Shown: positions 21,433 through 23,954 of the stretch, piece by piece
Layout of the letters: each line of letters begins with the position of its first letter
Numbering within the stretch: the first letter of the stretch is position 1
From: SAR202 cluster bacterium AC-409-J13_OGT_754m
GTDB taxonomy: Bacteria > Chloroflexota > Dehalococcoidia > Lucifugimonadales > GCA-2712585
Assembly: GCA_009391235.1 (NCBI GenBank)
Contig: VEXD01000005.1
Location: 1 to 44,653 of the forward strand
DNA: 44,653 bases
Reading direction: 5' to 3'
The notes under the pieces: model-generated
Told to the model about the DNA's origin: nothing
The model's input: only the letters and a program-made list of their open reading frames with translations
Databases searched by the model: none
Translations under genes and position numbers: made by a program

Positions 21433-22017
21433 ATGAAGAAACTATTAGTTGCGACAAAAAATCAGGGAAAACTTAATGAATTTGTGACTCTTTTAGCTGA
21501 GCTTCCTTATAAATTGGTGTCTTTGAATACGTTGGGTATTACAGAAGTAGTAGAGGAAACTGGGTCTACGTTTTATGAAAATGCCTTAATTAAAGCTAAA
21601 ACTTATTCTCGGTTAAGCAAAATGGATTCACTGGCAGATGATTCAGGGCTAGAAGTTGATGCTTTAGATGGCAGACCAGGAGTTTGGTCTTCCAGATATG
21701 GTTCTGAGAGCATGTCGGATGAAGATCGGGTTCAACTGCTGTTAAGTGAATTACAGGGAGTACCCTGGGATAAAAGAACTGCTAGGTTTAAATGTGTTAT
21801 TGTTTTGGCTACTACCCTTGGTTGTATTACTACGGTAGAATCATCAATTGAAGGGTTCATACAGTGCAAGGCACAGGGTTCTAATGGGTTTGGATATGAC
21901 CCCATTTTTTATTTGCCTGAAAGCGATTGCACAAGTGCCGAGTTGGCTACTAGAGATAAGAATGATATAAGTCACAGGGGTAAAGCAGCTAAACAGTTAA
22001 TTAAAGTTTTCAAATGA
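21433..22017 (+). CDS. rdgB: XTP/dITP diphosphatase (HAM1/RdgB)
   Basis: Removes non-canonical purine nucleotides (ITP, XTP, dITP) from the pool. Its 194 aa match. Diagnostic motifs: KKLLVATKNQGKLNEF at the start (SxNxxK-type binding loop), SLADDSGLEVDALDGRPG, and GSNGFGYDPIF followed by DKNDISHRGKAAKQL. The stop overlaps the moaA start by 4 nt (ATGA). Confidence 0.95.
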   Translation: MKKLLVATKNQGKLNEFVTLLAELPYKLVSLNTLGITEVVEETGSTFYENALIKAKTYSRLSKMDSLADDSGLEVDALDGRPGVWSSRYGSESMSDEDRVQLLLSELQGVPWDKRTARFKCVIVLATTLGCITTVESSIEGFIQCKAQGSNGFGYDPIFYLPESDCTSAELATRDKNDISHRGKAAKQLIKVFK

Positions 22018-23033
22018 ACATGATTTCAATTGTTGATAAATATAGAAGGCCTATAAAGGACTTAAGGATTTCAGTTACCGACCGGTGTAATTTCCGTTGT
22101 CCTTATTGTATGCCTGCCGAAATATTCGGTGAGAGCTATTCGTTTTTGGATAAGGCAACAATCTTATCGTTTGAGGAAATAGTAAGATTAGCTAAGATAT
22201 TTGTTTCGCTTGGAGTGAAGAAAATTTGTTTGACTGGCGGAGAACCTTTGATCAGGCGTGATTTGCAAGATTTGATATCTATGCTATCTGAAATTCCAGG
22301 TATAGAGGATTTAACACTTACTACCAACGGTTATTTTTTGGCCCAAAAAGCTGAAGCTTTGAAGGAAGCTGGGTTACATAGAGTAACTGTTAGTCTTGAT
22401 AGTATTGACGATGAAGTGTTTCAACAAATGAATGGCCGCGGTTATAAGATAAAACGTGTATTGGAGGGCATCGAAAAAGCCGCTTCTGTTGGATTGAGTC
22501 CTATTAAGATAAATGTAGTAGTCCAAAAGGGAATAAACGATTCTACTATTGTAGATATGGCTCGCCATTTCAAAGAATCTGGCTATATTGTGCGATTCAT
22601 AGAATATATGGACGTAGGTAATATTAATGGTTGGCAATTGGATGATGTAGTAACTGCTCGACAGATTTTAGATATGATTCATTCTGAAATGCCTCTTCAA
22701 CCCTTGGATAAGAATCACCCAGGGGAGGTTGCTGAACGATATATGTACAAAGATGGTATAGGGGAAATTGGCATTATAGCATCAGTGTCTAAACCGTTTT
22801 GCAGGGATTGTTCCAGAACGCGTATATCAAGTGATGGGAAATTCTACACATGCTTATATGCAGGATTGGGGCATAATTTACGAGATCTGATGCGTTCTGG
22901 CATATCTGATGATGAGTTGAGAAATGTGATATCAGGTGTCTGGACAGGAAGAGTGGATCGGTATTCTGAAGATAGAAATGTTGGACTTGGATCTACCTCT
23001 AAGAAAATAGAGATGTATCAAATAGGTGGGTAG
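22014..23033 (+). CDS. moaA: GTP 3',8-cyclase MoaA (radical SAM)
   Basis: The first step of molybdenum cofactor synthesis: GTP to 3',8-cyclo-7,8-dihydro-GTP. The 339-aa radical SAM protein has the N-terminal CX3CX2C cluster (CNFRCPYC), the GGEPLIRRD loop, the C-terminal CX2CX13C second cluster (CRDC ... C) that binds GTP, and the conserved C-terminal Gly-Gly (QIGG). It is coupled to rdgB by an ATGA overlap. The next gene carries MoaC, the enzyme that uses the MoaA product. Confidence 0.97.
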   Translation: MNMISIVDKYRRPIKDLRISVTDRCNFRCPYCMPAEIFGESYSFLDKATILSFEEIVRLAKIFVSLGVKKICLTGGEPLIRRDLQDLISMLSEIPGIEDLTLTTNGYFLAQKAEALKEAGLHRVTVSLDSIDDEVFQQMNGRGYKIKRVLEGIEKAASVGLSPIKINVVVQKGINDSTIVDMARHFKESGYIVRFIEYMDVGNINGWQLDDVVTARQILDMIHSEMPLQPLDKNHPGEVAERYMYKDGIGEIGIIASVSKPFCRDCSRTRISSDGKFYTCLYAGLGHNLRDLMRSGISDDELRNVISGVWTGRVDRYSEDRNVGLGSTSKKIEMYQIGG

Positions 23034-23063: not shown

Positions 23064-23954
23064 ATGATAAATATTTATACGGATGGTTCATGTGATGGAA
23101 ATCCTGGAAGAGGTGGATGGGCAGCTATAATAATAAAGGGTGATAAGAGGGCTGTCATTTCCGGGGAAGAAGGTCACACTACGAATAATAGAATGGAGCT
23201 CACGGCAGCTATAAAGGGATTGGAATCTTCTCCCAAAGGGTCTGAGGTTACTGTTTTTAGCGATAGCCTATATGTGGTCAATACGATGAATAAAAATTGG
23301 AAACGCAAAGTGAACAATGACCTATGGGAACAATTAGACATGCTCGCAACGGCTCGTAATATAAAATGGAAATGGATCAAAGGTCATTCTGGTCACCCAG
23401 AAAATGAGGAAGCTAACAGAATTGCAGGACTTCAGTCTGGGGTCATAGGACGTGCGGACTATTCAGATTTAACAATTGAAGGCTTAACTCATTTGGATGA
23501 ACATGGACAAGTGAGAATGGTCGATGTTGGGAACAAAAGCATTTCTAGTCGTTCGGCAATTGCAAAAGCATTTGTCAGGATGGAATCTGGAATTATAAGG
23601 ATGATATTGGATGGTGAGATTCCAAAAGGAGATGTTTTAGCTTGTGCAAGACTAGCGGGAATAATGGCCGCTAAACAAACTTCTAGCTTGATTCCTCTTT
23701 GTCATCCTATAGAGTTAAATCAAGTGAAGATTGATTTAGATTGTGATGAATTACGGCATGGTATAGTAGTCAGAGCTACGGTAAGTACTAATGCTCGTAC
23801 AGGAGTGGAGATGGAAGCTCTGACTGCTGTAACTATCTCCTCGTTGACCATATACGATATGTGTAAGTCATTAGATAAAAGCATTTCCATTGAGGAAATA
23901 ATATTGATTAGCAAACGTGGCGGCAAAAGTGGTGATTATCAACGAGATGAGTAA
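23064..23954 (+). CDS. RNase HI-MoaC fusion protein (ribonuclease HI / cyclic pyranopterin monophosphate synthase)
   Basis: One uninterrupted 296-aa frame encodes two unrelated enzymes. Residues 1 to about 125 are RNase HI: D7 in YTDGSCDGNPG, E45 in NNRMELTAA, D67 in FSDSLYV, and H108 in KGHSGHPENE. The fourth carboxylate (Asp134 in E. coli) is N118 (NEEANRIA), and the basic protrusion is about 13 residues shorter than in E. coli. After a short linker, MoaC runs from about 141 to 296, with MVDV, IPKGDVLACARLAGIMAAK, SLIPLCHP, TGVEMEALTA, YDMCKS and KRGGKSGD, including the catalytic Lys residues. MoaC makes cPMP from the MoaA product, and moaA is 30 nt upstream. Both halves look folded and mostly intact; the MoaC half is the more confidently active. 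Confidence 0.95.
   Translation: MINIYTDGSCDGNPGRGGWAAIIIKGDKRAVISGEEGHTTNNRMELTAAIKGLESSPKGSEVTVFSDSLYVVNTMNKNWKRKVNNDLWEQLDMLATARNIKWKWIKGHSGHPENEEANRIAGLQSGVIGRADYSDLTIEGLTHLDEHGQVRMVDVGNKSISSRSAIAKAFVRMESGIIRMILDGEIPKGDVLACARLAGIMAAKQTSSLIPLCHPIELNQVKIDLDCDELRHGIVVRATVSTNARTGVEMEALTAVTISSLTIYDMCKSLDKSISIEEIILISKRGGKSGDYQRDE

Follow-up and report, generated by a model that had tools for sequence, protein, structure and literature searches.

RNase HI and the molybdenum-cofactor enzyme MoaC are fused in frame within a conserved operon of one Chloroflexota class

Introduction

The closest precedent for a fusion of RNase HI to an enzyme of cofactor biosynthesis is provided by the actinobacterial RNase HI-CobC proteins (MSMEG_4305, Rv2228c and SCO2299; NCBIfam PRK07238, 'bifunctional RNase H/acid phosphatase'), which were judged by their investigators to have probably been fixed by drift (PMC7466739). 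The RNase HI part of these proteins lacks the basic protrusion found in the Escherichia coli enzyme, and other RNases HI likewise lack it (PMC7466739, PMC1950709, PMC9719913). Here we describe a second, separate case in which a protrusion-less RNase HI is fused to a cofactor-biosynthesis enzyme, the partner in this case being MoaC. The DNA analyzed, referred to throughout as the window, is a stretch of 44,653 nucleotides from a SAR202 cluster bacterium. From its letters, it had originally been predicted that a true in-frame RNase HI-MoaC fusion lies directly after moaA, and this was borne out by the 296-aa frame itself, by its Pfam and NCBIfam domains, and by 97 related loci. To that prediction the present analysis adds that the fusion is found clade-wide, that the same operon exists in an unfused form in relatives, and that the RNase HI involved is of the protrusion-less kind. 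No account of an RNase HI-MoaC architecture was found in the published literature, domain-architecture databases such as InterPro being outside the search, and the earlier statement that the fusion has no standard description therefore stands. The prediction had also missed that a fusion of RNase HI to another cofactor enzyme, CobC, was already known (PMC7466739).

Results

A single reading frame joins RNase HI to MoaC

The rnhA::moaC fusion gene occupies positions 23064..23954 of the forward strand and consists of a single open frame running from ATG to TAA. Its RNase HI domain (residues 2-122; 23067..23429, forward strand) was delimited by Pfam and NCBIfam profiles, alignment to E. coli RNase HI, Foldseek, and an AlphaFold model in which this part has a pLDDT of ~97; the Pfam RNase_H profile alone matched residues 3-122 with an E-value of 6.1e-34 (117.6 bits). 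The MoaC domain (residues 139-295; 23478..23948, forward strand) is full length according to Pfam, NCBIfam, alignment, and Foldseek. The whole Pfam MoaC profile (1-136 of 136) was aligned to residues 152-287 (E 4.5e-54), the NCBIfam MoaC model NF006870 matched residues 139-295 over its positions 4-160 of 161 with 220.7 bits (cut-off 162), and TIGR00581 scored 193.7 bits (cut-off 141.5). The NCBIfam RNase HI equivalog matched residues 2-122 with 130.7 bits, which is below its cut-off of 160. Because the RNase HI domain scores under the naming cut-off, an automatic annotation pipeline would probably name the protein MoaC alone. Fusions of this kind are thus likely to be annotated only as MoaC, and in many genomes the single RNase HI may escape notice.

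The two domains are separated by a linker of 16 residues (residues 123-138; 23430..23477, forward strand), which is partly disordered in the AlphaFold model (pLDDT < 50 at residues 136-140). The model of the whole fusion (58 fused homologues) has a mean pLDDT of 93.9 and a pTM of 0.58. When this monomer model was searched with Foldseek, the MoaC part matched the MoaC crystal structures 4pyd and 1ekr with TM-scores (target) of 0.94-0.96, the RNase HI part was matched separately to RNase HI structures, and no solved chain covering both was present among the matches listed. The protein is thus predicted to be composed of two well-defined domains on a flexible linker with no fixed mutual orientation.

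The genome from which the window comes is 1.03 Mb in 53 contigs and 70% complete. Within it, the fusion is the only RNase HI and the only MoaC found, both at one matching place. MoaE, MOSC, and RNase HII were not found in this genome, absences that mean little given its incompleteness; among relatives, MOSC proteins were present in 17 of 20 and RNase HII in 39 of 40. Four large MoCoBD_2 genes of the xanthine dehydrogenase family were also noted in the window's genome (G000 C2, C11, C12, and C23), and the molybdenum cofactor therefore has users there.

The fusion is spread over one class of Chloroflexota

To determine the distribution of the fusion, all 250 genomes of the order were searched, together with evenly drawn subsets of the class (393) and the phylum (400). 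From the order and class, 141 moaC loci were collected and classified by whether both domains share one stop-to-stop frame: 97 were fused, 30 had RNase HI encoded by the gene immediately upstream, and 14 had no RNase HI nearby, although 97 of 141 is not a prevalence because the loci were mainly picked from best matches. At least 69 of the 250 genomes in the order carry the fusion, and the 97 fused loci fall into at least 49 family codes and at least 81 genus codes. The original prediction had proposed mapping the architecture over the Chloroflexota; all 97 loci were found to lie in one class, probably Dehalococcoidia, with no match spanning both domains in ~345 sampled Chloroflexota genomes outside of it. 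Similarly, RNase HI was not found near moaC at any of 19 outgroup moaC loci (one more region held no moaC). The fusion, present in a large set of uncultured Chloroflexota, is real and old, and it has been repeatedly made or broken.

The fused gene lies in an operon whose unfused neighbors nearly touch

Upstream of the fusion gene in the window are moaA (GTP 3',8-cyclase; 22014..23033, forward strand), which ends 30 bases before it, and rdgB (dITP/XTP pyrophosphatase; 21433..22017, forward strand), the TGA stop of which overlaps the moaA ATG (ATGA, 22014-22017) in a manner that suggests coupled expression. The order rdgB-moaA-rnhA-moaC was observed at 68 fused loci and at 25 unfused loci with either of the two RNase HI types described below, and rdgB-moaA-moaC without RNase HI was observed at 8 loci. 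The four-gene operon is class-specific and is conserved in fused and unfused loci. RdgB and molybdenum-cofactor-dependent enzymes each protect E. coli from N-hydroxylated purines (PMC1173102, PMC3831636), and a shared role in the detoxification of these compounds is a possible reason for the operon, which we offer only as an idea. Two variants of the arrangement were noted. In a member of the window's own family (L092, genome G037), RdgB and MoaA are encoded in one 718-aa frame, so that with RNase HI-MoaC the operon contains two gene fusions. At L228 (genome G400), the fused gene is immediately preceded by a second RNase H copy that ends in TAG, an apparent tandem duplication, and a third RNase H is encoded elsewhere in the genome.

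Where RNase HI and MoaC are unfused, the junctions are tight. The stop and start overlap as ATGA in L188, L169, L171, and L163 and as TAATG in L110, while in L160 and L155 a TAG or TAA is followed directly by ATG. For example, fused L129 and its unfused sister L188, which share a genus code, have near-identical junctions: where L129 has ten A before TGA, L188 has AAAAAACAA, and this difference in length of about one base decides between one frame and two. The old MoaC ATG is still in frame at the junction of L129 (genome G227), and slippage at its ten-A run could yield both fused and separate products. Linkers across the 97 fused genes range from 0 to 69 residues with a median charge of -1.

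On a tree of concatenated RNase HI, MoaC, and MoaA sequences, the fusion state switches at least 8 times, counted without the direction of each change (fusion or split), and most unfused states lie within groups of fused loci. All trees were quick reconstructions under LG+G4, and this one mixes two histories, for which reason it is superseded for the protrusion trait by the trees described below. At least 8 switches together with near-contact junctions are what small insertions or deletions between coupled neighbors would give. Unfused close relatives were found in the family of fused genomes that includes the window's (G036) and in the genus of the fused genome G227 (G228); the fusion is therefore not required. 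A chance operon fusion was among the options raised by the original prediction, and it has become the better supported one, given the unfused neighbors in the same order, their ATGA junctions, and the difference of about one base between L129 and L188.

Based on these results, we think it probable that the protein is a bifunctional RNase HI and MoaC derived from an operon gene fusion, with both enzymes working and coupled mainly in their production. The spread of the 97 fused loci over at least 49 family codes, the conserved operon order, and the near-contact unfused junctions all argue for this interpretation. Minor shifts of frame where two translationally coupled genes meet would have generated one chain that begins with RNase HI, continues through a flexible linker, and ends with MoaC (cyclic pyranopterin monophosphate synthase). 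The two halves would act independently, and the main effect of the fusion would be to tie their production together.

The strongest competing explanation is the same one minus any benefit from joint production. It is purely neutral: a stop was lost between overlapping genes, MoaC tolerates N-terminal additions, and the resulting fusions were fixed or lost by drift. This may well be what happened, and we lean only slightly against it. The at least 8 gains or losses on the tree, the single-base route illustrated by L129 and L188, the very variable linker length, and the lack of predicted domain packing are all consistent with drift, and the RNase HI-CobC authors viewed their own fusion in the same way (PMC7466739). 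On the other hand, the fusion has persisted over at least 49 family codes with most unfused states nested among fused ones, and the protrusion-less lineage is mostly fused (97 versus 13 unfused in what is a biased sample of loci).

Two RNase HI lineages have occupied the same operon slot

The RNase HI domain of the window lacks the basic protrusion, or handle, of the E. coli enzyme. At this site (23298..23315, forward strand; WKRKVN) E. coli has ~13 residues more, the flanking conserved positions being separated by 12 residues in the window and 25 in E. coli. The E. coli reference sequences used for numbering were checked by known catalytic positions. The protrusion is missing from the RNase HI domain of all 97 fused proteins. 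Among the 30 unfused adjacent RNases HI, it is absent from 13 and present in 17, such that every protrusion-bearing copy (17 of 17) is unfused. The two types are split on the RNase HI tree by a branch with support of 99.9. On the tree of MoaA and MoaC, the loci group by family and the protrusion type changes 7 times, and a single clade of protrusion-bearing loci is rejected by the MoaA and MoaC data (lnL 340 lower, p-AU ~1e-81). Horizontal transfer of the whole operon was therefore rejected as the source of the pattern, since MoaA and MoaC refuse the one clade that RNase HI alone gives. The most economical interpretation is that the slot between moaA and moaC was kept while its RNase HI gene was exchanged, on several occasions, for one of the other lineage.

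MoaC is known to form hexamers, and in the fused protein each hexamer would bear as many as six flexibly linked RNase HI domains. This raises the possibility that MoaC replaces the missing protrusion, with six weakly binding RNase HI domains gripping hybrids by avidity. If so, the protrusion-less RNase HI would now rely on hexameric MoaC for substrate affinity, in a slot kept for RNase HI of either lineage, and a hybrid-clearing housekeeping nuclease would depend on a cofactor enzyme as its scaffold. We consider both the tethering itself and such a dependence doubtful. The perfect split of fused and protrusion-bearing copies fits the idea, as does the fact that the slot was swapped between lineages several times without a protrusion-bearing copy ever being found fused. 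Similar arrangements have also been considered elsewhere: the RNase domain of protrusion-less Rv2228c is slower on its own than as part of the whole protein, and CobC was suspected of taking over the role of the protrusion, as has been proposed for an additional binding domain in B. halodurans RNase HI (PMC7466739, PMC1950709). Against it, 13 of the protrusion-less copies occur unfused, and M. smegmatis without CobC (MSMEG_4305) is hardly affected in vivo (PMC7466739). In addition, a basic MoaC surface or linker was rejected as a stand-in for the protrusion because the linkers are neutral to acidic and MoaC is no more positively charged in its fused than in its unfused form (mean net charge of -0.6 versus -0.2). 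Finally, 5 independent contrasts are supported on the tree of MoaA and MoaC; a difference is seen in 3-4 of them, always with the protrusion-bearing member unfused, and the sign test gives p ~0.125. The association between protrusion and fusion is thus suggestive but not significant. As far as the bifunctional interpretation is concerned, the restriction of fusions to the protrusion-less lineage is a hint, though no demonstration, that tethering also compensates for weak substrate binding.

Both domains are conserved in most fused proteins

In an alignment to E. coli RNase HI, the window domain retains the catalytic residues D7, E45, D67, and H108, and N118 (AAC, 23415-23417) aligns with E. 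coli D134. The corresponding D10, E48, D70, and H124 are retained in nearly all fused RNase HI domains. With D134 included, the five-residue combination is DEDHD in 55 fused proteins and DEDHN in 31, while 8 proteins have His and 2 have Trp in the last position. Foldseek identified E. coli RNase HI variants D134N and D134H in the PDB (1kvc and 1kvb), and these are reportedly the two substitutions that keep much of the RNase HI activity (Haruki et al., 1994). H124 is lost in seven fused proteins (L003, L229, L230, L232, and L234, and also L173 and L174). The RNase HI of Halobacterium still cleaves without this histidine and without a protrusion (PMC9719913). The domains of L173 and L174 (genomes G160 and G163) read AEDPW, having lost D10, H124, and D134, and from their sequence should be catalytically dead. 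With these losses in some lineages, RNase function is not universal among the fused proteins. All five genomes of the genus in question (g64, G160-G164) carry a separate canonical RNase HI, and in one of them (G161) no RNase HI adjoins moaC. The dead domain is constrained (dN 0.073, dS 1.37, dN/dS 0.053), a hint that it may have some non-catalytic role.

The MoaC domain of the window retains R163, K188, K204, H214, E249, E251, D265, K268, and K284 (E. coli MoaC R26, K51, K67, H77, E112, E114, D128, K131, and K147), and these active-site residues are near-invariant across the 97 fused proteins. For closer pairs, dN/dS (NG86; several pairs were saturated) is mostly ~0.05-0.3 in both domains, and both are under purifying selection. 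Most of the fused genomes examined have no RNase HI apart from the fused one, which is accompanied by RNase HII. The near-invariant MoaC active site, the mostly kept RNase HI residues, and the low dN/dS thus further favor a bifunctional protein, as does the natural experiment in g64, where a separate canonical RNase HI accompanies a dead or absent fused one. Counted against it are the catalytic losses in some lineages, the constraint on the dead domain, and the unfused close relatives.

It had also been predicted that the fusion could give MoaC an RNA- or nucleotide-linked function, and one form of this idea is that the RNase H domain is a pseudo-enzyme serving as an RNA-binding regulator of cofactor synthesis. 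The conserved but dead domain of L173 and L174 points in this direction. Nevertheless, we find the idea hard to credit: the catalytic residues are retained in most fused copies, each the sole RNase HI found in its genome, and fused MoaC is no more basic than unfused MoaC and has a normal, unchanged active site. Lastly, for all that the window's genome is fragmented and 58 of the 97 fused genes have an ATG or GTG somewhere in the linker region, we give almost no credence to an assembly or sequencing error, a frameshift at 23430-23530, or two products made via an internal MoaC start, all foreseen as ways in which the original prediction might fail: the same frame occurs in 97 loci, including single-contig assemblies (G035, G025, and G414), an in-frame ATG, GTG, or TTG was looked for in the window linker and none was found (close to where MoaC begins, a start-type codon first appears as the TTG at 23494, within the conserved LTHL motif), and an internal start is not conserved across the 97 fused genes, 32 of which have no in-frame start in the linker and only 11 of which have an ATG or GTG with a good ribosome-binding match.

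Discussion

The slot between moaA and moaC offers a set of natural variants, namely fused and unfused genes, both RNase HI lineages, and a catalytically dead version. These variants provide a direct test of whether odd gene fusions are selected or neutral.

With respect to its nuclease half, the fusion shares the RNase H fold and most catalytic residues with E. coli RNase HI (rnhA), in which alone of the two the protrusion is present, and with the protrusion-less enzymes of B. subtilis, Halobacterium, and B. halodurans. It differs from these enzymes in that D134 is often Asn or His and in that its partner is MoaC rather than a hybrid-binding domain. With respect to the other half, a full-length MoaC with a conserved active site is common to the MoaC/MoaB, MoaC/MOSC, and MoaC/MobA fusions in NCBIfam, and animal MOCS1A-MOCS1B is another MoaC-type fusion. 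The partners in these other fusions belong to or touch the cofactor pathway, whereas RNase HI does not.

The RNase HI-CobC proteins are built in the same way as RNase HI-MoaC, with an N-terminal protrusion-less RNase HI followed by a linker and a cofactor-biosynthesis enzyme, the cofactor being cobalamin in one case and the molybdenum cofactor in the other. Each fusion is restricted to a clade, and in neither is there an obvious shared chemistry between the halves. Beyond this, the phyla differ, the partner in the actinobacterial proteins is the histidine phosphatase CobC (phosphoglycerate-mutase type) rather than MoaC, and the window RNase HI matches PRK07238 only weakly (37.8 bits; cut-off 326). 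Unlike RNase HI-CobC, RNase HI-MoaC shares its operon slot with unfused neighbor genes and with RNases HI of a second lineage. RNase HI-MoaC is therefore not a member of the RNase HI-CobC family, but a protein that resembles it in architecture.
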